From a virus, in IMG/VR virus record IMGVR_UViG_3300047476_000222, positions 1-34,473 of that record: a DNA stretch of 34,473 nt. The stretch is one strand, 5' to 3'. The stretch's first letter is position 1. The number at the start of each line of letters is the position of its first letter. Positions 5,460 through 33,950 of the stretch are shown here, piece after piece. The notes beneath the pieces were generated by a model. The model saw nothing but the letters and a program-made list of their open reading frames with translations. It did no database searches and was not told where the DNA came from. The position numbers and the translations under genes were made by a program.

Positions 5460-5940
5460 TTTAGTCAAAGACTATGCACCTAGCGTAGCGACTGCTCTTG
5501 GCGGTCCGCTTGCAGGTGCGGCAGTGTCACAAATTGCAAAACAGTTCGGAGTAGAGCCGACAGTTGATGCGGTGACTACTGCGCTTCAATCTGCAACGCC
5601 TGAACAGTTGGCTAAGTTGCAAGAGATTAAAGTTGAGGAATTAAAAGCTCATAATGCGAATACTGCTGATGCTCGCAAAATGAATACTGAGCTTCAATTA
5701 TCTAGTGCCGCATCATGGATTGCTAAAAACACTGGCTATGTCTTGGACTACATTATTGTTTTAGCAACTATGTATATGACACATAGATTATTTGGTGCAG
5801 GTGTCCCGCCTGAAAATAAAGAACTTGCATATATGGCTTTTGGTTCATTGCTTACTTTATGCGGAACAGTTGTAAATTTCCATCGAGGCTCTAGTAAATC
5901 TAGCCAAGATAAAACAGAACTTATGAAAGGCATGAAATGA
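5443..5940 (+). CDS. Holin, GTA_holin_3TM-like family
   Basis: 165 residues from ATG 5443, preceded by AAGGAAAAAG. The N-terminus (MDKLLDLVKDYAPSVATALG, then GPLAGAAVSQIAKQFG) and the overall pattern match the holin family named after gene transfer agent release. Following an amphipathic Ala-rich first helix are two clear membrane helices at about residues 98-114 (YVLDYIIVLATMYMTH) and 128-145 (AYMAFGSLLTLCGTVV). Residues 50-90 are polar and helical. Holins form the inner-membrane holes that time lysis. The gene overlaps the endopeptidase gene by ATGA, as expected for a holin-endolysin pair. Confidence 0.72.
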   Translation: MDKLLDLVKDYAPSVATALGGPLAGAAVSQIAKQFGVEPTVDAVTTALQSATPEQLAKLQEIKVEELKAHNANTADARKMNTELQLSSAASWIAKNTGYVLDYIIVLATMYMTHRLFGAGVPPENKELAYMAFGSLLTLCGTVVNFHRGSSKSSQDKTELMKGMK

Positions 5941-6389
5941 GTTTAAGTGAACATTTCACATTAGATGAGGCAACATATTCTGAAACAGCTATTCGTCTTG
6001 GAATTAATAATCAGCCGAGTGAGGCGCAGTTAGAAAACATGAGATTAGCGGCAATAGGCATGGAGCAAGTTCGAGCATTGACTGGTCCGTTGCGTATTAA
6101 CTCATGGCTTCGATTGCCTGAAGTCAATGTGGCGGTAGGCGGTAGCAAGATTTCAAGTCATATGGATGGTTGGGCTATTGATTGCAGTTCATCAAAACTT
6201 AGCCCATATGAAATCTGCAAATTGGTTGAAAACTCAAATATTAAGTTTGACCAGATGATTCATGAGTTTGGTCGTTGGATGCACATTAGTTTTGCTCCTG
6301 AAATGCGTATGCAAAAGCTCACAATCTTCAAACCTGAAAACAAATACAAGGCAGGCATCCTGACCGAAGCTGAATATCATTCAGCATAA
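5937..6389 (+). CDS. Endolysin: M15 family D-Ala-D-Ala-type peptidase
   Basis: A 150-residue zinc peptidase of the M15 type that cuts stem peptides or cross-links of peptidoglycan at lysis. The signature SSHMDGWAID gives the zinc ligands His75 and Asp82, and RWMHISF gives the third ligand, His116. The N-terminus (SEHFTLDEATYSETA) is typical of the phage M15 subfamily. There is no signal peptide, so release depends on the holin encoded just upstream, with which it overlaps by ATGA. Length is normal for a single-domain phage M15 endolysin. Confidence 0.88.
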   Translation: MSLSEHFTLDEATYSETAIRLGINNQPSEAQLENMRLAAIGMEQVRALTGPLRINSWLRLPEVNVAVGGSKISSHMDGWAIDCSSSKLSPYEICKLVENSNIKFDQMIHEFGRWMHISFAPEMRMQKLTIFKPENKYKAGILTEAEYHSA

Positions 6390-6471
6390 AAGGACAACAC
6401 TAAGGTTCTGAAATGCCACTTGTCTCCTTGGCTATCAGAGGTAACGGAAGTGAGAACGCCTTAGTTGTTGT
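6388..6471 (-). terminator. Branched hairpin terminator at the end of the minus operon
   Basis: On the minus strand, a long imperfect stem (ACAAC, ACTAAGG and TTCT pairing with AGAA, CCTTAGT and GTTGT) encloses an inner stem CACTT/AAGTG and a variable loop. It is followed by CCTTTT at 6388-6393. It lies between the converging endolysin gene and the last minus-strand gene, and its first arm overlaps that gene's stop codon. It probably stops minus-strand transcription. The interior is larger than a simple terminator needs. Confidence 0.5.
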
Positions 6472-6775
6472 AGCACTCTTTCACTCGCATTAAATAATCA
6501 ACTCCCATTTCTGTTAGCGTGACTACTGGTTGCGCTTTTTTAGCGGTTGGCGGTCTTAAACTGTAAACGCTGACAAGTCCTTTTAAATATGGCACTAAAT
6601 CGCCTCTGATAGTATTGCCTGCTACTCGCTCTTGCAAAATAATATTTTGAATTGTCGCTTGCTTGATAACTTTATGCTCATTGATAAGTTCTAAAATATA
6701 TTCAAGGCGGCAACAGGTAACGAATGGTCTACTAAATACTGTTTTTCTTAATTCATTATGTTTGATGATTGACAC
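6461..6775 (-). CDS. Winged-helix-like small protein
   Basis: A 104-residue basic protein, last gene of the minus-strand cluster. The middle has helix-turn-helix-like character (LEYILELINEHKVIKQATIQNIILQE, split by short turns), with a possible wing and a C-terminal segment (PVVTLTEMGVDYLMRV) reminiscent of winged-helix regulators. It overlaps the upstream gene by 28 bp. It may bind DNA and act as a local regulator, but no family was recognised. Confidence 0.5.
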   Translation of the reverse strand: MSIIKHNELRKTVFSRPFVTCCRLEYILELINEHKVIKQATIQNIILQERVAGNTIRGDLVPYLKGLVSVYSLRPPTAKKAQPVVTLTEMGVDYLMRVKECYNN

Positions 6776-7137
6776 TTAAAAACCCATTTAATTAATTCGT
6801 GATGATTGATTGTTTTATTTTTTACTCGTTGAGTAATTGCTTGATATTTTCTTGCTTTTACTTTTTCACGATATAAACGCTGTCGCTCTGAATCGCATGG
6901 CTTTTCGTAAACTGCATCTTTGAAATTGCCGCATCCATAAATAGGAGTTTTTCTATGAAAGTCCATTTGATATTCATAGATGTGAATTCGCTTTTGTTCT
7001 TTTAACTTTTTCAAGCTCACAATAATACAGGTTTTGCCTTTATTAAAATGCTCCATTAATTGAAGTCGATTCATTGGCGTGCGTTTTAATTGCTTAACAA
7101 TTGCATCTAATAAATCATTGCCAGTTAGTTTGCTCAT
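6748..7137 (-). CDS. HTH-like DNA-binding protein
   Basis: A 129-residue, strongly basic protein. Residues about 5-55 read as a winged helix-turn-helix (LLDAIVKQLKRTPMNRLQLM, then KTCIIVSLKKLKEQKRIHIYEY), in which the second helix and the following hairpin would contact DNA. The C-terminus is Lys/Arg-rich and helical (RQRLYREKVKARKYQ). It overlaps the YbcO-like nuclease gene by ATGA. It could regulate early or late transcription. Function is inferred from the fold only. Confidence 0.5.
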   Translation of the reverse strand: MSKLTGNDLLDAIVKQLKRTPMNRLQLMEHFNKGKTCIIVSLKKLKEQKRIHIYEYQMDFHRKTPIYGCGNFKDAVYEKPCDSERQRLYREKVKARKYQAITQRVKNKTINHHELIKWVFKCQSSNIMN

Positions 7138-7427
7138 AATATTCTGATGTGGTCGTTTTCAAATAGCCATCCAATAAAAGCTCGATGAGCTTCTTCCCAT
7201 TTTTGCTCTCGTTCTTCCCTGCTCCAATTTTTACCTTGGTCAAGTTCAGCGTGGCAGGTAAAACATAAAGCGGCTATTCGATAGTCATGCGCCTTTAATC
7301 CTATGCCCTTGCCATCACGCAATTGATTTGAATGTGCCGCAACAATAGTTCCGTCATTATGTTTTTTGCATATGCCGCAGGTATTGGCGGTGCGAGCAAT
7401 TTCTAAGAGTGTTTTATTGCGATACAT
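7134..7427 (-). CDS. YbcO-like (DUF1364) HNH-type nuclease
   Basis: A 97-residue protein like YbcO/DUF1364, small zinc nucleases found in lambdoid nin regions. Zinc and active-site positions are visible: C17-x2-C20, H32 in VAAHSNQLRDGKG, and C55-x2-C58-H59 in LCFTCHAELDQG. The family is a compact HNH fold that cuts DNA, probably branched or recombination intermediates. Its presence beside NinB and RusA fits a phage recombination cluster. The start at 7427 is the only plausible ATG. Confidence 0.8.
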   Translation of the reverse strand: MYRNKTLLEIARTANTCGICKKHNDGTIVAAHSNQLRDGKGIGLKAHDYRIAALCFTCHAELDQGKNWSREEREQKWEEAHRAFIGWLFENDHIRIL

Positions 7428-7430
7428 TTA

Positions 7431-7553
7431 TTATTTCTCATTAGTTTTATTTAGTTTTATTAATAAATAATGCAGGTATGCAAACGCTTTATTTGAATGC
7501 CAAGAATGACAATCATCACAACAAGTCCATCCAAGTTTTATTTTTTGTTTCAT
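7431..7553 (-). CDS. 40-residue Cys-rich small protein
   Basis: A small ORF of 40 residues whose ATG (7553-7551) overlaps the stop of the preceding 36-residue ORF as ATGA. Its N-terminal half has clustered Cys, Asp and His (TCCDDCHSWH), which could bind a metal. The C-terminal half is hydrophobic and basic (AYLHYLLIKLNKTNEK). It ends four bases before the YbcO-like start. The unbroken chain of overlapping small ORFs supports it being real; function unknown. Confidence 0.5.
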   Translation of the reverse strand: MKQKIKLGWTCCDDCHSWHSNKAFAYLHYLLIKLNKTNEK

Positions 7554-7660
7554 TTCTCACTCGCTTTCTTTATTGCCAAGAAAATACAAATTAAAACCAA
7601 TATGCCTAAATTTAGTTCTGAAACAAACTTTGTTAATAAAAGCAATGTACTTTCAATCAT
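7550..7660 (-). CDS. 36-residue membrane protein
   Basis: A small ORF of 36 residues with one hydrophobic helix (LGILVLICIFLAIKK) and a charged end (KKASEK). Its ATG overlaps the stop of the 139-residue gene upstream (ATGA at 7660-7657), and its stop overlaps the next ATG. The last codons plus next start are a 22-bp exact copy of the preceding gene's end, so this short gene may have arisen by duplication of a junction. Unknown function. Confidence 0.5.
   Translation of the reverse strand: MIESTLLLLTKFVSELNLGILVLICIFLAIKKASEK
7551..7572 (-). repeat. Gene-junction direct repeat, copy 1
   Basis: A 22-bp sequence identical to 7658-7679. On the minus strand it encodes the last residues (KASEK), the stop and the next ATG. 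A third, shorter and less exact version lies at 8074-8091. Confidence 0.75.
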
Positions 7661-8076
7661 TTCTCACTCGCTTTCTTTAGTATTGCTTTAGCAAAGCTAT
7701 GCCAATTTAATAACCCCATACTGTGACCTAAATGTTTTTTAGCAACTTCTCTTATTTCCTCATCACTTAACTCTCTTGGTGCGGTGTAGAGAGGTTGCCA
7801 ATCATCACATTCTTTTATTTTGGAAATACCAATGGCATTTTTAGGGTTGCCATCCCACCATGCAACAGGTTCTTGTGATAAACTAGAATCTAAGTGTGCG
7901 GTTTTATTAAAGCAGTTATCTGGACATGAATTAGCCAAGACTCCAATCTTGGCTTTTTCTTTTTCTAACTCTACTGATAATCTATTGACCTCAAGCATTA
8001 ATGTCGCAATGGTTGGCTCTGCGTTGCAGGTTCTTCCCTGATTGCAATCGCCATGACAAGGTGGGCATTTATTCAT
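7657..8076 (-). CDS. Eaa-like phage protein with Cys-rich N-terminus
   Basis: A 139-residue mosaic protein. The N-terminus is Cys-rich (CPPCHGDCNQGRTC). A coiled segment follows (LMLEVNRLSVELEKEKAKI), then the phage-typical modules SQEPVAWWDG and DWQPLYTAPREL. A helical C-terminus (LSDEEIREVAKKHLG) completes it. The EPVAW/PLYTAP modules recur in Eaa/ead-like accessory proteins of lambdoid and other proteobacterial phages, whose function is unknown. The stop overlaps the next small ORF. Confidence 0.65.
   Translation of the reverse strand: MNKCPPCHGDCNQGRTCNAEPTIATLMLEVNRLSVELEKEKAKIGVLANSCPDNCFNKTAHLDSSLSQEPVAWWDGNPKNAIGISKIKECDDWQPLYTAPRELSDEEIREVAKKHLGHSMGLLNWHSFAKAILKKASEK
7658..7679 (-). 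repeat. Gene-junction direct repeat, copy 2
   Basis: Exact 22-bp copy of 7551-7572 at the junction of the Eaa-like gene and the 36-residue ORF. It encodes the same KASEK ending and the next start codon. Confidence 0.75.
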
Positions 8077-8078
8077 TT

Positions 8079-8249
8079 TTAACTCGCTTTATGCAGTTGA
8101 TAAGATGTTAAAGAAAAAGCTCCACTGCCAATTGACATGATGAAGCTAAATCCTAAATCAGGTCCTCGCTTATCAAAGTCAAATCCAAACAGCCAAAATG
8201 TAAATGCGCATAGCGCAAAGCCAATTAAAAACGCTAATATATCTTTCAT
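8079..8249 (-). CDS. 56-residue membrane protein
   Basis: A small ORF starting at ATG 8249-8247, overlapping the NinB stop by ATGA and ending two bases before the Eaa-like start. It has two hydrophobic segments (ILAFLIGFALCAFTFWLFG and LGFSFIMSIGSGAFSL) separated by a short charged loop (DFDKRGPD), so it is probably a helical hairpin in the inner membrane. Function unknown. Confidence 0.6.
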   Translation of the reverse strand: MKDILAFLIGFALCAFTFWLFGFDFDKRGPDLGFSFIMSIGSGAFSLTSYQLHKAS

Positions 8250-8653
8250 TTTTTCATCTCCGTATCGTTATAAGCATTAATCATTTCATCTGACCAACGA
8301 ACTCCATTTTCATTAGCCCATGCCAGAACGCTAGTCACATAATCTGAAAACTCATGCTTTGTTAAATTGGTTGTCGTTTTTTCAGCCTCTAATAATTCTC
8401 CATTAGGCAATTCAATCCACTCATTCCTTAAAAATAACTCTTTCATATAAGAGTGCCAAACATTAGGGTCATATTTTTTTCTTTCAGGCTTTACCCATTC
8501 ACTAATTTGCCTAAGAGTTGCCCAATAGAATCTATTTTGTGCCGCAGTTCTGTCAGGAGAGCGAATTTCAAGAATCCAATTATTCGGAGTTTGCCTAATT
8601 AATTCCACAATATCTAGACGATTAGTTTCAGTTAGCAAATAATTTCTTTTCAT
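8246..8653 (-). CDS. ninB: NinB-like recombination protein
   Basis: About 135 residues from ATG 8653; a TTG at 8671 would add six residues. The segment EIRSPDRTAAQNRFYWATL is the hallmark of the NinB family, followed by VWHSYMKELFL and a C-terminal helix (FSDYVTSVLAWANENGV). NinB (lambda Orf) binds single-stranded DNA and SSB and helps load annealing proteins during phage recombination. The annealing protein, exonuclease and SSB it would serve are encoded on the opposite strand at 10877-14165. Length is close to lambda Orf. Confidence 0.85.
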   Translation of the reverse strand: MKRNYLLTETNRLDIVELIRQTPNNWILEIRSPDRTAAQNRFYWATLRQISEWVKPERKKYDPNVWHSYMKELFLRNEWIELPNGELLEAEKTTTNLTKHEFSDYVTSVLAWANENGVRWSDEMINAYNDTEMKK

Positions 8654-8655
8654 CT

Positions 8656-9045
8656 CTAGACCTTTTTGCAAACATTCTGTAATAGTTCTTGGATTCTTTT
8701 TCTATTCTTTGCTTTTTGTTCTTCTGTTATAGTATCTGTAATTTGCAAAGTATTAGATGGAACATAACAATTTTTTAATAAATCCATGAATTGAGGAAGA
8801 TTAGGTGGCTCTGAAGGAAGGCAATCCAAAACCTTTTTAAGCACCTCTGGCTTATCGTAATATGAAGCTAGTCTTTCTCCCCACATCTGCATAGCATTAA
8901 CCATTCCTGCATCTCTACCATCAGGCAGAAGCTGTTTTGTGCACCACATATTGATAAACCTATTTCCGTAGTAAGCCTGCATAGTAGCGAATATCTTTTG
9001 AACCCAAGTATCAGGCAATCTTTTTATAGTCATCTGCTCTGTCAT
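8656..9045 (-). CDS. Replication protein P-like helicase loader
   Basis: A 129-residue protein resembling the lambda P family, which brings the host DnaB helicase to the phage initiator. The visible pattern is W-x2-KIFATMQAYYGNRFINMW, an Arg-Leu-Ala helix (MWGERLASYY) and EPPNLPQFMDLLKNC, similar to the P-family Pro/Leu motif. It is shorter than lambda P. It begins inside the last 35 bp of the DUF1376 initiator gene, the usual O-then-P order. The P assignment is from pattern only. Confidence 0.6.
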   Translation of the reverse strand: MTEQMTIKRLPDTWVQKIFATMQAYYGNRFINMWCTKQLLPDGRDAGMVNAMQMWGERLASYYDKPEVLKKVLDCLPSEPPNLPQFMDLLKNCYVPSNTLQITDTITEEQKAKNRKRIQELLQNVCKKV

Positions 9046-9727
9046 TTAAAATCCTTTCATCTCCAAAAATAGCTCTAGCTCCACCCATTCTATTATCTAG
9101 TGAATTTGTAATAGATGTAGGTTTATCTTTCACCCAATCTGCTTCAAAGTTTGCCCACTGCTTTTCTAAACAGTAGGTGATAACCTTTTGTAAATTCCAA
9201 CCTAGCTTTTGGCCTTCGGCTCTTACTCTATTTTCTATTCTCTCTGTCCATTCTTTTTTATGCTTCTTTCGAACTTTTAAATATTCTTTAAAGTCATTCT
9301 CATCAACATCTAATGGAATATATATATTCTTTTTTTGGTTATTGGTTATTGGTTCTTGGTTAGCATTAGGGTCGCATTGGGTTGGCATAGGCATAGTTAT
9401 AGGTAAGCTATCAGATTTTTTATTTTTCCAACGCTTTTCTGCACCTAGCTTTCCACCTTTTGATTTGTTTAAATATCCCTCGAGCTCTTTGTCGCATCTT
9501 GATTGTTTTAGGTATCCGTCTGCAATCTCAAAATATGTTTTTATAATTAGCGTTACAGTTTGAGAATCAGAACCTATTTGGAAAGCTATTTGCTCTGGGT
9601 CGTTCTTAACAACTCCATCTTTATCGTAATACATCCAAATCAATCTTAGGTAAGCCATGGCTTGGCTATCGGTTAGCCTTGATGTAGCTTTTATAAAATC
9701 ACCTATATGGTGTTGGTAGTAGTGCAT
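9011..9727 (-). CDS. DUF1376 replication initiator-like protein
   Basis: A 238-residue protein. The N-terminus is the DUF1376 domain (YYQHHIGDFIKATSRLTD, then AYLRLIWMYYDKDGVV), a winged-helix region typical of phage replication proteins. A Lys-rich linker follows, with KSKGGKLGAEKRWKNKKSD (a common motif after this domain). The C-terminal half has a Trp-rich end (CLEKQWANFEADWVKD). By analogy with lambda O it would bind an origin, probably within or near its own gene. GGAG sits four bases before the ATG. It lies directly after a terminator-ended structured RNA, so its transcription may be attenuated. Confidence 0.72.
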   Translation of the reverse strand: MHYYQHHIGDFIKATSRLTDSQAMAYLRLIWMYYDKDGVVKNDPEQIAFQIGSDSQTVTLIIKTYFEIADGYLKQSRCDKELEGYLNKSKGGKLGAEKRWKNKKSDSLPITMPMPTQCDPNANQEPITNNQKKNIYIPLDVDENDFKEYLKVRKKHKKEWTERIENRVRAEGQKLGWNLQKVITYCLEKQWANFEADWVKDKPTSITNSLDNRMGGARAIFGDERILNDRADDYKKIA

Positions 9728-9738
9728 AAAACTCCAAT

Positions 9739-9847
9739 AAAAAAAGCCCTAGACAACACTCTCACCTGTTAAGGTGTTGGTGGACTAGTCGGCACTAGCA
9801 GAGTGTTGTCTAAGGCTTGCCGATTGTAATATCTCCACCAAGAGATA
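9739..9847 (-). ncRNA. Candidate structured RNA with 3-way junction, pseudoknot and terminator
   Basis: On the minus strand: a 5' hairpin TATCTC-TTGGTG-GAGATA (9847-9830), a short linker, then a long outer stem at 9817-9800 pairing with 9762-9745 (17 pairs, one mismatch). That stem encloses hairpin CTAGT-GCCG-ACTAG and hairpin CACC-TTAACA-GGTG. Seven T residues follow (9745-9739). The junction linker TCCACCAA is an exact 8-nt complement of TTGGTGGA in the 5' hairpin loop, so a pseudoknot can form. A promoter-like sequence lies just upstream at 9852-9881. It could be a ~105-nt small RNA, an attenuator or a ligand-sensing leader for the downstream initiator gene. Confidence 0.65.
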
Positions 9848-9851
9848 ATTG

Positions 9852-9881
9852 ATTATATACACACTTTATCGTGGTGGTAAA
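9852..9881 (-). promoter_or_regulatory. Sigma70-like promoter for the structured RNA
   Basis: On the minus strand, TTTACC (9881-9876), an 18-bp spacer and a perfect TATAAT (9857-9852); the alternative TTACCA has a 17-bp spacer. It lies in the end of rusA. A start about seven bases downstream (about 9845) would give an RNA of about 105 nt ending in the T run at 9739. The first base or two of the 5' hairpin might be lost. Confidence 0.5.
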
Positions 9882-10222
9882 GTTTCAATCATTACGACTG
9901 CTCTACCGCCTTTGCATATCTCTCCACGCTGAACCATTAATACATCTATTTGCTCATCATCATCAAAGACACCTGCCTGACAAATAGCATCTATTAGGCT
10001 TTTTAAATTATTGTCTAAATCCCTAGTGCGCTTATCAGGTGGGCAAAGCGTAATCGTCATTTCTATTCTTGATTTTCCTAGCTTAGGCGTGCAAGTTTCA
10101 ATTACTTGCTCTGATACATGAGCTTTAAATTGGTTGGCCTTAGGTGTTAGATAACGCCTATGCCCATGAAAGCCCCAGTATGTATTGACTGATGGAGGAT
10201 AGTTTAGATTAAGAATTATCAT
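9866..10222 (-). CDS. rusA: RusA Holliday junction resolvase
   Basis: A 118-residue resolvase that cuts four-way DNA junctions made during phage recombination and replication, clearing branches before packaging. The N-terminal NYPPSVNTYWGFHGHRRYL and the catalytic stretch RTRDLDNNLKSLIDAI carry Asp68, Asp70 and Lys74, with a further Asp cluster (FDDDEQID, residues 87-89). These match the metal-binding residues of RusA. Length is normal. It is the first gene read from the minus-strand promoter at 10255-10283. Confidence 0.92.
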   Translation of the reverse strand: MIILNLNYPPSVNTYWGFHGHRRYLTPKANQFKAHVSEQVIETCTPKLGKSRIEMTITLCPPDKRTRDLDNNLKSLIDAICQAGVFDDDEQIDVLMVQRGEICKGGRAVVMIETLPPR

Positions 10223-10254
10223 AATTTTTCTATAAAAAATGTATTAGTTGTATG

Positions 10255-10283
10255 ATTATGCTGTTAAGTATATGTTTTGTAAA
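10255..10283 (-). promoter_or_regulatory. Leftward early promoter
   Basis: On the minus strand, TTTACA (10283-10278), exactly 17 bp, then CATAAT (10260-10255). It points into rusA and the replication cluster, with a leader of about 25 bases. It lies back to back with the rightward promoter at 10319-10347. Confidence 0.6.
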
Positions 10284-10324
10284 GCTAAAAAATATTTAAA
10301 AAAAGTTATAAAAAAGTGTTTACA
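10284..10324 (+). repeat. Duplicated promoter module, copy 1
   Basis: A 41-bp AT-rich stretch that includes the -35 box and an A-tract region like an UP element. It matches 14480-14520 at 37 of 41 positions. The two copies diverge after the -35 box. Confidence 0.8.
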
Positions 10325-10347
10325 TTACTGTAATACTTCTTTATAGT
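10319..10347 (+). promoter_or_regulatory. Rightward early promoter 1
   Basis: TTTACA (10319-10324), 17 bp, TATAGT (10342-10347). A-tracts lie upstream. A perfect inverted repeat TTACA-TTAC-TGTAA (10320-10333) overlaps the -35 box and could be an operator. The leader ends in ACACGAAAGG before the ATG at 10378. Confidence 0.68.
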
Positions 10348-10377
10348 GTTATTTATACACACACGAAAGGAAACAAA

Positions 10378-10467
10378 ATGAAAGACACAATATTAGCAGG
10401 ATTATTCGGATTAGCAGGAGGAAGTCTTTTAGCAGTTGTTTATATCTTACGCACAGGGGGATTTTAA
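10378..10467 (+). CDS. 29-residue membrane protein, first rightward early gene
   Basis: A 29-residue ORF with an excellent ribosome site (ACACGAAAGG followed by AAACAAA then ATG), so it is very probably translated despite its size. One hydrophobic helix (ILAGLFGLAGGSLLAVVYIL) fills most of the protein. It is the first gene after the strongest rightward promoter, so it should be among the earliest and most abundant products. A similar Gly-Leu helix opens the 50-residue protein at 12146. Possible roles include superinfection exclusion or host membrane modulation; unknown. Confidence 0.65.
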   Translation: MKDTILAGLFGLAGGSLLAVVYILRTGGF

Positions 10468-10468
10468 T

Positions 10469-10768
10469 ATGAAGCTAGATTATTTAGAAAAATTAGCAGA
10501 TGCTCACGAATCACAGTTTGACGATTACGAAGATTTGCACGAACAGGTATGTGATGCAATTCTTAACAATACAAAACTTAGTTATGGCGCATTAAATAAC
10601 TATCATACAAGTCCATTTGATAGCAACGACCTTGGAGATAAGGTTTATGAGAAATCAGGATTGTTATTGCGCTCATATATCAAAGGAGATGATGAGGAAA
10701 TGCTAGCTATTATGAAGCACCTATGCAAACAAGAAATAGATTCAATCATTGATTTAATTGGAGATTAA
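10469..10768 (+). CDS. Acidic early protein, unknown function
   Basis: A 99-residue acidic protein starting at ATG 10469, just after the stop of the 29-residue gene and preceded by an AGGGGG-type ribosome site. The N-terminal half is rich in Asp, Glu and His (YLEKLADAHESQFDDYEDLH) and the rest is helical (YGALNNYHTS, EEMLAIMKHLCKQEID). It has no membrane segment. Early position and strong acidity would fit a host-takeover or DNA-mimic-type inhibitor, but this is only a possibility. Confidence 0.6.
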   Translation: MKLDYLEKLADAHESQFDDYEDLHEQVCDAILNNTKLSYGALNNYHTSPFDSNDLGDKVYEKSGLLLRSYIKGDDEEMLAIMKHLCKQEIDSIIDLIGD

Positions 10769-10790
10769 AGTGGTTAAATTTTATAGATTT

Positions 10791-10820
10791 TTTAAAATGT
10801 ATAAGAATTGGGGTTATAAT
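10791..10820 (+). promoter_or_regulatory. Possible promoter for the annealing-protein operon
   Basis: A perfect TATAAT at 10815-10820, followed by ACTTCT as in promoter 1, with a weak -35 (TTTAAA, 18-bp spacer). A leader of about 50 bases ends in ACACGAAAGG before the ATG at 10877. Confidence 0.45.
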
Positions 10821-10876
10821 ACTTCTCTATCAATCCGATTGGCTTGGTATAAATTAACAACACGAAAGGAATACAA

Positions 10877-11515
10877 ATGAGCAAATATTTAGATTTAAGA
10901 AAATTAGATGTAAGCAGTCACATAGAAAAGAAGAATGGACTGTCATACTTATCTTGGTCTTGGGCGTGGGATATTTTTAAACAGAATTATCCGCAAGCAA
11001 CTTATGAAATTATTAAAAATCCAAATAACGGATTGCCTTATTTTGAAAGCCACGCAGGTGCAATGGTTTACACAAAGGTGACAGCAGATGATATTACTCA
11101 CGAGATGTGGTTGCCAGTTATGGATGGAGCTAATAAGGCCATGAAGCACGAGGCATATACTTATAAAACTAGAAACGGTGATAAGTTATGTGAAGCATTT
11201 TCAATGACAGATGTTAATAAAGCAATTATGAGATGCCTTGTTAAGAATCTAGCAATGTTCGGTTTAGCGATATACATATATAGCGGTGAGGATTTGCCAT
11301 CAGATGCAATAGATGTAATTGATACATACCCTTATCGTAATCAAATTTTAGAGGCCACTTCATTAGATGACTTACAAATCAAGTGGAAGATGGCATATAA
11401 AGCATTTGCTAATAATCCTGCAAAACAATTAGAGCTAGAAAAAGAAAAAGACAAGCGCAAGACAGAACTATTAGCAATCAAACCTAATGCACCGGAAGAG
11501 CAGGAGCAAGCATGA
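10877..11515 (+). CDS. Single-strand annealing protein (DUF1071/Sak-type)
   Basis: A 212-residue protein matching the DUF1071 pattern: YLDLRKLDVSSHIEKKNGLS, then YLSWSWAWDIFKQNYPQA, MVYTKVT, and a conserved core FSMTDVNKAIMRCLVKNLAM followed by GLAIYIYSGEDLP. This family is grouped with phage Rad52-like annealing proteins, which pair complementary single strands made by an exonuclease. The matching exonuclease (13007) and SSB (13752) are in the same operon. The C-terminus is a charged helix. It starts at an ATG with the ACACGAAAGG ribosome site and ends overlapping a small acidic ORF. Confidence 0.75.
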   Translation: MSKYLDLRKLDVSSHIEKKNGLSYLSWSWAWDIFKQNYPQATYEIIKNPNNGLPYFESHAGAMVYTKVTADDITHEMWLPVMDGANKAMKHEAYTYKTRNGDKLCEAFSMTDVNKAIMRCLVKNLAMFGLAIYIYSGEDLPSDAIDVIDTYPYRNQILEATSLDDLQIKWKMAYKAFANNPAKQLELEKEKDKRKTELLAIKPNAPEEQEQA

Positions 11516-14429: not shown

Positions 14430-14449
14430 ACCCTAAGCATTTGTAGGGT
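14430..14449 (+). promoter_or_regulatory. Short inverted repeat, terminator or operator
   Basis: Perfect ACCCTA-N8-TAGGGT followed by ATTTAG. It is too short and GC-poor for a strong terminator. It sits between the branched terminator and early promoter 2 and may be an operator or backup stop. Confidence 0.35.
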
Positions 14450-14479
14450 ATTTAGACTGATAAATACTTGATTGTATTA

Positions 14480-14520
14480 GGTTAAAAATATTTAAAAATA
14501 CTTATAAAAAAGTGTTTACA
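14480..14520 (+). repeat. Duplicated promoter module, copy 2
   Basis: Matches 10284-10324 at 37 of 41 positions, covering the A-tract upstream region and the TTTACA box. Confidence 0.8.
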
Positions 14521-16228: not shown

Positions 16229-17152
16229 ATGAGCTTAAATCCGCAGTTTCCATTGTATATCCCTAGTAAGGGAAGGCATGAATACATGATTACAAGCAAA
16301 GTTTTGACTGAGCTTGGAGTTAAGCATTTTATTGTCGTAGAGCCACAACAGGTAGATGACTATCAACGAGCAGTAAAAAATATGAATCTATTGGCAACGA
16401 TTCTACCTTTGGATATGTCATATAAAGATAAGTATGAGCTATGTGATGACTTTGGATTGACTAAAAGCACAGGGCCAGGTCCGGCTCGTAATTTCGCATG
16501 GGACCATTCTATTAAAAATGGTTTTGCTTGGCATTGGGTTATGGATGACAACATCACTTCATTTAGACGCTTAAATAAAAACGAAAAAGTCAAAGTCAGT
16601 AACGGGTCAATATTTAAAGCGATGGAAGATTTTGTATTGAGATATAAAAATATTGCAATGGCAGGACCAAACTATTATATGTTTGCGCCTGCTAGAGTAA
16701 AACAACCTCCTTTTATTATGAATACAAGGATTTACTCATGCAATCTAATCCGTAATGACTTAGCGTTTAGATGGCGTGGAAGATATAACGAAGATACTAT
16801 TATATCGTTAGATATGCTTAAAGCAGGATGGTGCACAGTTCAATTTAACGCTTTTCTACAACAGAAAATGCCAACTCAAACTATTGGCGGTGGTAATACT
16901 CAAGAGTTTTATCACGCAGAAGGAACAGTTCAAGCAGGTCAAAAGTATGCCGACACAGGAACATTAGCAAAGTCTCAAATGCAAGTTAAAGTCCATCCTG
17001 ATGTATCTAAATTGGTTTGGAAATTTAATCGCTATCATCACCATGTAGACTACACACCATTTAAAAAACAAAAGCTCATCCGCAAGGAAGACATAGAAAT
17101 TCCTAAAAAGCCAAACGAATATGGGATGAATCTAAAAAAGATTAAAAAATGA
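16229..17152 (+). CDS. TAGT-like glycosyltransferase, candidate DNA-base glucosylation enzyme
   Basis: A 307-residue GT-A protein. Motifs: PLYIPSKGR (8-16), IVVEPQQVDDY, the GPGPARNFAW loop (82-91), the metal-binding HWVMDDNI (DDN at 106-108), and RWRGRYNEDTIISLDMLKAG (181-200) with WCTVQFNAFLQQK. A later GGGNTQEFYHAEGT and HHHVDYTPF complete a pattern I associate with TAGT, the TET/JBP-associated glycosyltransferases of phages predicted to put sugars on hydroxymethyl-pyrimidines in DNA. ParB-like and terminase neighbours fit that setting. No TET/JBP dioxygenase or nucleotide hydroxymethylase is visible, so the substrate is unresolved. Confidence 0.72.
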   Translation: MSLNPQFPLYIPSKGRHEYMITSKVLTELGVKHFIVVEPQQVDDYQRAVKNMNLLATILPLDMSYKDKYELCDDFGLTKSTGPGPARNFAWDHSIKNGFAWHWVMDDNITSFRRLNKNEKVKVSNGSIFKAMEDFVLRYKNIAMAGPNYYMFAPARVKQPPFIMNTRIYSCNLIRNDLAFRWRGRYNEDTIISLDMLKAGWCTVQFNAFLQQKMPTQTIGGGNTQEFYHAEGTVQAGQKYADTGTLAKSQMQVKVHPDVSKLVWKFNRYHHHVDYTPFKKQKLIRKEDIEIPKKPNEYGMNLKKIKK

Positions 17153-31347: not shown

Positions 31348-31692
31348 ATGCTTGCAGGACTATTAGATATTGAAGTTGAACAGGGTGCGACTTTTGAATT
31401 AACATTTATCTATCAAGATGAAGCGGGTAATCCTTTTGATTTAACTGGCATGACTGCTCGTATGCAGTTGCGCAGGACATATAATAGCCCAACGGCTTTA
31501 ATTGAATTGACTACTGCGAATAATAGAATTGTATTCGACCCATTCGCAGGAAAAATAACATTGCGAATTTCTGCAACAGATACTCAGCCTTTGAGTGGTT
31601 CAGGTGTTTATGACCTTGAATTAATTGACGGCTCTACTGTAAATCGTATTTTAGAAGGCTCATTTAAGGTATGCGCTGAGGCAACAAAATGA
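31348..31692 (+). CDS. BppU-like baseplate/fibre-mount protein
   Basis: A 114-residue beta protein like the BppU N-terminal or phage baseplate upper-protein family: [66 protein letters not shown]. Such domains join fibres to the tail tip. It follows the preceding stop without a gap and overlaps the collagen-like fibre gene by ATGA. Confidence 0.75.
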
Positions 31693-33950
31693 ATCGCATA
31701 ACTGTAATCAATGCAACTAATCAAATTCAAGTAATTCAAGACCCTGATAGTCAAGTCATTGTATTGCAAGAGCAAGCTCGTACTATTGTTTTGCGCGGCG
31801 AAGGCATCCAAGGTCCGAGAGGCTATGGATTACCGCAAGGCGGAGCAATTAATGATTTAATTGTTAAAAAAAGCGGCACTGATTACGATACTGAATGGCG
31901 TGATGAAATAACTGTCGATAAAATTACGCTTGACCAAACTGCGGCTGAAATTGTTGGTGTTTCACAGATGGCGTGGAACGATACTGATGGCACGATGGAT
32001 TTGGGATTAAAGGGTGGAAATGTCACACTCCAAGTAGGTCAAGAATTAGTGCAGATGTGTAATAACAGAACTGGCTCATCTATTTTAAATGGTAGCGCAG
32101 TAGTTATTAAGGGCTCTCAAGGTAATCGCCTAACAATTTCAAAGGCGATGGCTAATGCTGAATCAACATCTAGTAAAACTTTTGGCGTTTTAACTGAAGA
32201 TATTTTAGATAATCAGTCAGGGTTTGTAACAACTGAAGGATTAGTTCGTGGCATTGATACAAGCGCATTGTTAGAAGGAGCTATTGTATGGCTATCTCCA
32301 ACAGTTGCAGGCGGATTAACAACTACAAAGCCGAGCGCACCTGACCATCTAGTAATGATTGGCGTATGTGTTAGACAACATCATTCAGTCGGTATGCTCT
32401 ATGTCAAAGTCACGAATGGATTTGAATTAGATGAATTGCATAATGTTAAATTAACTAATCCGCAAAATGGGGATGCTCTTGTTTATAACTATGCGACACA
32501 ACTTTGGGAAAATAAGCAAGCAGTCGGTCCAACTGGTCCAACTGGACCACAAGGATTGCAAGGATTACAAGGCGTTCAAGGTGAGCAAGGTATTCAAGGC
32601 GTTACTGGTATACAAGGTCCAACTGGTCCGATAGGTGAAACAGGACCAACAGGTCCAACAGGAGCGGCATCTACTGAAGTAGGTCCAACAGGTCCAACAG
32701 GCGCACAAGGTCCGACAGGTCCAACAGGACCAATGGGCGCAGATTCAACAGTCGTAGGTCCAACTGGTCCGACTGGTCCTCAAGGTGAACAAGGTATTCA
32801 AGGAGTTCAGGGAATACAAGGTGAATTAGGTCCAACTGGTCCTCAAGGTATTCAAGGCGAGCAGGGTATCCAAGGGGTAACTGGACCAACAGGCGCACAA
32901 GGATTAATTGGTCCAACTGGTCCAACGGGTGAGCAGGGTATACAAGGTATTCAAGGAACGGTAGGTCCGACAGGTCCAACGGGTGCAACTGGTCCACAAG
33001 GCACAAGCATAAATCTAAAAGGTGAAGTAGCGACTACTGGCGACTTGCCTATGGTTGGCAATCTTCCGAATGATGCTTATGTTGTTTTATCTGATGGTAA
33101 TTTATGGGTATGGGATGGACTTGCTTGGTTTGATGCGGGTCAAATTGTTGGTCCTATGGGTCCGACTGGTCCTCAAGGTGAACAAGGTGTTCAGGGGAAT
33201 ATTGGTGCAACTGGTCCAACTGGAGAGGTTGGTCCAACTGGTCCGACTGGTTCACAAGGAATACAAGGCGAAGTAGGTCCAACTGGTCCGCAGGGTATCC
33301 AAGGAGTTCAAGGCGATATTGGTCCAACTGGTCCTCAAGGTATTCAAGGCATCCAAGGTTCTCAAGGTATTCAGGGCGAAGTAGGTCCGACTGGACCAAC
33401 AGGTGCTCAAGGTTTGCAAGGAATACAAGGCATACAAGGTATTCAAGGTGAAGTTGGTCCTACTGGTCCGACTGGAGCAACTGGACCTCAAGGTGCTGAT
33501 TCAACTGTCATCGGTCCTACTGGTCCAACTGGTCCACAAGGCACTCAGGGTGTACAAGGTATTCAGGGTGAGATTGGTCCTACTGGTCCGCAAGGCATAC
33601 AAGGTGAAACTGGTTTAACTGGTCAGACTGGTGGGGTTGGTCCTACTGGTCCAACTGGTCCACAAGGCGCACAAGGTATTCAAGGTGAAACTGGATTAAC
33701 AGGACCAACAGGTCCAACGGGTTCACAAGGCACAACTGGGGCGCAAGGTCCAACTGGTCCAACTGGTAACACTGGACAACAAGGACCAACTGGACCAACT
33801 GGACCGAGTGGAACTACTCTTGTGAACTGGACTATTACAGAATCAGGCGGAGTTTTATTTTTTGCTTATTCAGGCGTTAATAAATTCAAAGTTGATTCAA
33901 GCGGAAATATCACAACTATTGGCAATGTGACAGCATACGGAACAATGTAA
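31689..33950 (+). CDS. Collagen-like tail fibre
   Basis: A 753-residue fibre. Residues 1-279 are an attachment and beta-structured head. Residues 280-438 are Gly-X-Y repeats (mainly GPT, GPQ, GIQ), and residues 439-487 form an interruption with a small folded domain ([20 protein letters not shown], then [13 protein letters not shown]). Residues 488-708 are a second collagen block and 709-753 a beta-like end ([18 protein letters not shown]). Collagen blocks make trimeric rods. Bacterial collagen-like proteins often carry sugars on Thr in GPT, which is very frequent here. A methyltransferase and glycosyltransferase lie two to four genes downstream. Confidence 0.9.
32526..33812 (+). repeat. Collagen-coding tandem repeat tract
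   Basis: Imperfect 9-bp-periodic DNA repeats encoding Gly-X-Y, split by a non-repeat segment at about 33006-33149 that encodes the interruption domain. Local runs such as GGTCCAACTGGTCCGACT recur many times. Such tracts are prone to unequal recombination, so length may vary between isolates, and assembly here should be checked. Confidence 0.85.

Follow-up and report, generated by a model that had tools for sequence, protein, structure and literature searches.

The minus strand of the window (the whole 34,473-nt stretch of virus record IMGVR_UViG_3300047476_000222 analyzed here) carries at positions 9847 to 9739 a small RNA that, as judged from its sequence, is one member of a larger, unnamed RNA family. 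The RNA is predicted to be about 107 nt long, with a putative promoter and terminator of its own (Table 1). Comparison across viral contigs establishes the family, all of its helices, two long-range pairings, and a fixed place before a replication operon. We read the RNA as the 5′ leader of the replication-initiator operon, where it may act as a bistable transcription attenuator, and we put the probability of this reading at roughly 0.45. A preliminary description of this stretch had suggested that the RNA is regulatory or attenuates the initiator gene, and this proposal is supported, given that the pairing covaries and that the downstream gene is of the primosomal or replication-initiation type. 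The family is a strongly supported addition to phage biology, and as a compact system open to experiment it may exemplify a terminator whose control comes from long-range pairing instead of from a ligand.

Table 1. Features of the RNA locus in the window, and loci of a second RNA class in related records
Feature	Position	Strand	Basis or remark
Downstream gene, DUF1376/primosomal, replication-initiation O-like protein	9011..9727	−	ATG 11 nt past the U-run
Stem P 3′ arm plus U7, predicted intrinsic terminator	9739..9762	−	Fold; U-run after the stem in listed members
Whole RNA	9739..9847	−	Covariance model score 100.6 bits, E 1.8e-24; model built with the window sequence included
Hairpin C, stacked on stem P	9763..9776	−	Fold and covariation
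Pairing 1, 3′ strand (TCCACCAA), the junction linker	9777..9784	−	Covariation
Hairpin B	9785..9798	−	Loop 9794-9789 (TGCCGA) is the pairing 2 3′ strand; fold and covariation
Stem P, 5′ arm, 18 nt	9800..9817	−	Fold; pairing kept despite unrelated stem sequence in divergent members
Pairing 2, 5′ strand (TCGGCA)	9818..9823	−	Adjoins stem P; covaries with loop B
Hairpin A	9830..9847	−	Fold and covariation
Pairing 1, 5′ strand (TTGGTGGA)	9834..9841	−	Covaries with 9784-9777
Loop of hairpin A, 6 nt	9841-9836	−	Core of the pairing 1 5′ strand
Sigma-70-type promoter (TTTACC/TTACCA, 17-18 nt, TATAAT)	9852..9881	−	Motif match; conserved −10 position
Upstream gene, RusA-like Holliday-junction endonuclease (rusA)	9866..10222	−	
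Class 2 loci	L140:1373-1482, L154:1369-1478, L155:1368-1477	+	
Class 2 loci	L172:1373-1482, L214:1380-1489, L248, L256, L257, L275	+	

Fold of the RNA

The hairpin, the stem-closed three-way junction, and the U7 run (9745-9739) noted in the preliminary description are all present, and the 8-nt complement between loop and linker that it pointed out, TTGGTGGA with TCCACCAA, is an exact match. Stem P, which closes the junction, consists of 18 pairs (9817-9800 with 9762-9745), one of them G-U. A second long-range pairing, TCGGCA with TGCCGA, had been overlooked. The folding energy of the predicted RNA is −49.1 kcal/mol versus −27.8 ± 3.5 kcal/mol for shuffled sequences (z = −6.1). The opposite strand of the locus also scores well (z = −4.3) because stem P is a near-palindrome, and the minus strand was assigned on account of the U-run and the gene order. 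Throughout the window, the RNA is touched by no inverted repeat of 16 nt or longer other than its own stem.

Members of the family

A pattern of the stem with a free interior identified one independent phage (L084), and a relaxed pattern identified 46 viral contigs. A covariance model made from the window and 23 sequences of this pattern-found set matched 45 of the 46 contigs, the exception being L116. Since the search pattern fixed nine pairs of P, stem conservation within this set is biased; to escape the bias, a model (R1) was run on loci gathered through protein homology. This revealed members with unrelated stems (e.g., L059, L134, L145, and L158), showing that the seemingly extreme conservation of the stem P sequence was an artifact of the search pattern. 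A model built from 30 members (R2) returned further members upstream of Lin1244-type and DUF1376-type initiators, with up to 59% G+C. The family is found on about 92 viral contigs, a count that leaves out loci on one and the same contig, and comprises more than 50 distinct sequences; the contigs of rusA records were covered within the fetched stretches only. The common layout runs from promoter, hairpin A, linker, stem P, hairpin B, linker, and hairpin C to the 3′ arm of P, the U-run, and the start codon. At one locus (L146:287-381, plus strand), 12 nt of the stem P 5′ arm are missing while hairpins A, B, and C and both long-range pairings are kept; this is either a natural terminator-less variant or an assembly error.

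The preliminary description had recognized no known family, in agreement with an Rfam covariance-model search of the window and six divergent members, in which no family exceeded its gathering threshold; the best three weak hits (401 bases) reached 19 to 21 bits versus cutoffs of 63 to 80. DNA similarity searches of GenBank phages and plasmids gave chance-level matches only. Two pattern scans of GTDB genome contigs gave zero hits and then three that do not fit the fold, and R2, run under stricter filters and with no positive control, found no match in a shallow sample of 398 bacterial genomes of one phylum. Seven named phages with related initiators gave no convincing match, the single 24-bit hit among them spanning only 62 nt and being read as a plain hairpin. 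No description of the family was found in the literature, where coverage was incomplete and an earlier description may exist.

Covariation and the long-range pairings

In an alignment of 24 members, pairing holds in 97.5% of the cells, and both sides vary in 14 pairs. In 30 divergent members the paired fraction is 96.2%, with changes on both sides in 34 of 41 pairs, and covariation is present in all six helices. The covariation score of these 30 members is 0.545, versus 0.167 for shuffles and at most 0.067 for slid versions; the shuffle comparison is inflated by relatedness, which the slid controls preserve.

The alignment was fitted to the nested structure and not to the two long-range pairings. 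Pairing 1 joins loop A to the linker between B and C and is 96.7% paired over the 30 divergent members, three of its six pairs varying on both sides. It reads TTGGTGG/CCACCAA in the window and TTGACGG/CCGTCAA, TTGGAGG/CCTCCAA, TTGCAGG/CCTGCAA, or TGGGGAG/CTCCCCA in other members. Pairing 2, between the linker directly before P and loop B, shows compensatory changes of the same kind (CTAGTA/TACTAG, CGGATA/TATCCG, TGGGTA/TACCCA, and CACAGTG/TACTGTG). Moreover, in the 17 out-of-sample members, which were found with a model blind to the long-range pairings, pairing 1 occurs in all 17, and pairing 2 has at least 6 bp in 16 and 4 bp in the remaining one. The loop-linker complement from which the preliminary description had predicted a pseudoknot is hence both covarying and conserved.

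Genomic context and promoter

The start codon lies 10 to 19 nt past the U-run in 66 of 68 loci. In the two exceptions (L113 and L128) the automatic pick was an ATG at the U-run, and a second, downstream ATG fits. This short gap leaves no room for another promoter. The arrangement, a predicted terminator between a putative promoter and the first start codon, is that of a terminator-attenuator leader. The genes after the RNA belong to DUF1376, Lin1244_N, MAERRM (which resembles DnaD-like helicase loaders and replisome organizers), and others without a Pfam match. The gene that follows is of the replication-initiator type or is set just ahead of one: the initiator comes after an ABC-GNAT protein in L113 and L128, after an unassigned gene in L162, and after a 62-aa frame in L152. 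Such insertions separate the RNA from the initiator and do not occur upstream of the RNA, which is kept at the head of the replication operon even where the initiator gene belongs to a different family. The inserted gene of L113 (5104-6255), also present in L128, encodes an ABC-ATPase fused to a GNAT acetyltransferase domain and precedes a Lin1244-type initiator.

Tyrosine integrase was absent from 17 long member records including the window, some of which may be fragments, and was detected in 14 of 14 control genomes. With no integrase detected, the member phages are probably lytic.

The TATAAT/TTTACC promoter of the preliminary description is present at 9881-9852, as TTTACC-18-TATAAT or TTACCA-17, and overlaps the 3′ end of rusA. 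Promoter-like sites in this AT-rich region number 24, versus 28 expected by chance from shuffles; the match in the window is by itself not above chance, and comparative support was therefore needed. The predicted −10 element ends 4 to 9 nt ahead of the RNA in 40 of 48 distinct upstream sequences, and this fixed position across the family, rather than the motif match, is the real evidence for a promoter. Given this spacing, the predicted transcript start falls on hairpin A, at about 9845 in the window.

The promoter motif GTGTGTATATAAT is retained in the closest rusA relative (85% identity; L004:3355-3480), where another, terminator-less sequence with a possible GTGGC/GCCAC pairing follows it. 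Elsewhere in the window, two 73%-identical AT-rich blocks ending in AAAAAAGTGTTTACA (10243-10324 and 14439-14520) are possibly a duplicated early promoter region. A recurring ACACGAAAGGA-like motif directly before start codons (10361, 10860, 12476, and 14872) is probably the ribosome-binding context of the phage. A TET-associated glycosyltransferase (Pfam TAGT; 16229-17152) next to a ParB-like protein suggests hypermodified DNA, and a 753-aa protein (31689-33950) has collagen-like Gly-X-Y repeats over about 1.3 kb (32.5-33.8 kb).

A bistable leader as the favored reading

In the proposed mechanism, host RNA polymerase would start at hairpin A. As long as the 3′ arm of P has not been made, two pairings would form, loop A binding the junction linker and loop B the linker ahead of P, to give an early conformer. 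Emergence of the 3′ arm would let stem P zip up to the U-run and end transcription, leaving the ~107-nt RNA, whereas persistence of pairing 2 past the U-run would let the polymerase read through into the initiator gene. The balance of the two folds would set the dose of initiator, with kinetics, a protein, or another RNA as candidate sources of bias. The order of folding and the steric exclusion described below are model predictions; termination, read-through, and any signal acting on them are inferred.

When predicted transcripts were cut before the 3′ arm of P in simplified folding calculations, pairing 1 had a probability above 0.5 in 28 of 30 members and pairing 2 in 23 of 30, with mean pair probabilities of 0.84 and 0.64, respectively (0.94 and 0.98 in the window). 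This early fold is nested, pairing 1 enclosing pairing 2, and its energy is moderately better than that of shuffles (mean z = −2.2; window, −3.9). P takes over when the upper half of the 3′ arm is included, and the full-length fold contains P in 30 of 30 members and neither long-range pairing. Since the terminator always wins at equilibrium, read-through would have to be kinetic or assisted.

Pairing 2 adjoins the bottom of P, and hairpin B is at its top. In coarse sampling with rigid A-form helices, pairing 2 together with all 18 pairs of P leaves a gap of at least 22 Å for one phosphate link, and no gap if only the upper 9 to 10 bp of P form. Stem P has a mismatch at position 9/10, between its halves, in 27 of 29 members and in 16 of 17 out-of-sample members; the window and L084 have A-U there. 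This geometry and the mid-stem mismatch suggest that, in cis, pairing 2 cannot coexist with the lower half of P, next to the U-run. It is because of the early fold before the 3′ arm and of this steric conflict that a bistable leader is favored.

Ribosome-dependent attenuation through a leader peptide was rejected: the members have no conserved short ATG frame with a ribosome-binding site, most of them having an ATG in hairpin C without a Shine-Dalgarno sequence.

A second RNA class in the same place

Several relatives of these initiators are preceded instead by a second, undescribed class of RNA, formed by two long hairpins, of which the second is a predicted terminator. Their loops are complementary over 6 to 7 nt and covary (GGTCAAG/CTTGACC, GGACTAG/CTAGTCC, GGACAAG/CTTGTCC, GAGCAG/CTGCTC, and GTGCAAG/CTTGCAC). 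None of the records checked holds both classes, and four representative class 2 loci had no match in Rfam. In both classes a loop pairing reaches the apex of the terminator stem; this shared principle argues for a common function and is compatible with action in cis as well as in trans. A second class at the same site suggests a control point under strong selection in uncultured, apparently lytic phages.

Alternative explanations

An intrinsic terminator is contained in the RNA, as it would be if this were an ordinary terminator surrounded by chance folds. That explanation has practically no chance of being correct, contradicted as it is by covariation in every helix and by two long-range pairings conserved out of sample. 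A ligand-binding riboswitch controlling the initiator would fit a pseudoknot-capable three-way junction joined to a terminator; however, almost all junction residues are paired, leaving nothing like the conserved unpaired core of a binding pocket, most of the conserved residues belong to pairs, and Rfam gave no match, and we consider it quite improbable. It is unlikely, too, that a constitutive strong terminator is overridden by a phage antitermination factor that would load on the promoter or the RNA, with the fold as loading site, on the model of lambda pR′-tR′ with Q or of the HK022 put RNA. Such a factor would suit the promoter directly at the RNA, the terminator ahead of the operon, and the compact conserved fold, but no gene for one was identified, short of a systematic search, and stem sequences that change completely between members are not those of a sequence-specific loading site.

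The main rival to a bistable leader is an RNA acting in trans. Hairpins A and B, whose stems covary as well, have 6-nt loops that coincide exactly with the paired segments, and such a placement is explained by simultaneous pseudoknots or by intermolecular kissing no less well than by alternative folds. The loops of the terminated ~107-nt RNA could thus pair with another copy, either in a dimer or in the nascent leader of another genome, and by analogy might give a copy-dependent control of the initiator like that of P4 CI RNA or IsrK. We regard this as possible, on a tentative footing: pairing 2 does not fit in cis with the full stem P, the second RNA class presents complementary loops on two long stems in the same place, and the short form of IsrK and P4 CI RNA, as described in PMC4825925, are precedents. 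Against it, intramolecular pairing should beat intermolecular pairing for pairing 1, and the lack of integrase in the 17 long records makes lysogenic immunity of the P4 kind unlikely. It is more doubtful still that both RNA classes pair loop to loop between molecules and that the RNA counts phage genome copies. More templates would then yield more RNA and more pairing with nascent leaders, altering termination before the initiator; if true, lytic phages would time replication with RNA alone, two unrelated folds serving one purpose.

Comparison with known systems

At lambda pR′-tR′, a short terminated RNA is made from a strong promoter, and read-through into the operon is conditional on Q. Lambda depends on a protein at the promoter, whereas in the window family the conserved feature is the RNA fold. 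C4 antisense RNA is likewise a small structured phage RNA; it had no covariance-model match to the window RNA, which, unlike C4, is sense to the operon that it precedes. The kinship with C4-type antisense RNAs raised in the preliminary description found no support, no Rfam family having reached threshold, and for lack of a match the RNA is assigned neither to C4 nor to pRNA nor to a known riboswitch. A type III toxin-antitoxin RNA was also rejected, there being no tandem repeats in 5900-11000 and the downstream gene being DUF1376, not an endoribonuclease.

GOLLD and ROOL, in the description consulted (PMC12286853), are structured bacterial RNAs whose copies associate, as action in trans would require here; they are far larger and are not terminator leaders, and the window RNA had no Rfam match. 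P4 CI RNA was compared through its description in PMC4825925. According to that account, its pairing with seqA and seqC stops transcription of the replication genes of P4, and the alpha operon leader resembles the window RNA in being untranslated, placed before replication genes, endowed with self-complementary segments, and subject to premature termination. P4 CI RNA arises by processing of a primary transcript and works in lysogeny (PMC4825925), unlike the window family, which is compact (~107 nt), has its own predicted terminator beside the start codon, and comes from phages in which no integrase was detected. IsrK of prophage Gifsy-1 is, in the same source, a small RNA that heads a phage operon and has a promoter and a terminator of its own; read-through gives the mRNA, and the short form of IsrK acts in trans on its own read-through transcript (PMC4825925). 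IsrK differs in controlling translation of an antirepressor, not a replication initiator, and its description there includes no double long-range pairing (PMC4825925). By analogy, the nearest working models for the window RNA would be the P4 leader with CI RNA, IsrK of Gifsy-1, and lambda pR′-tR′.
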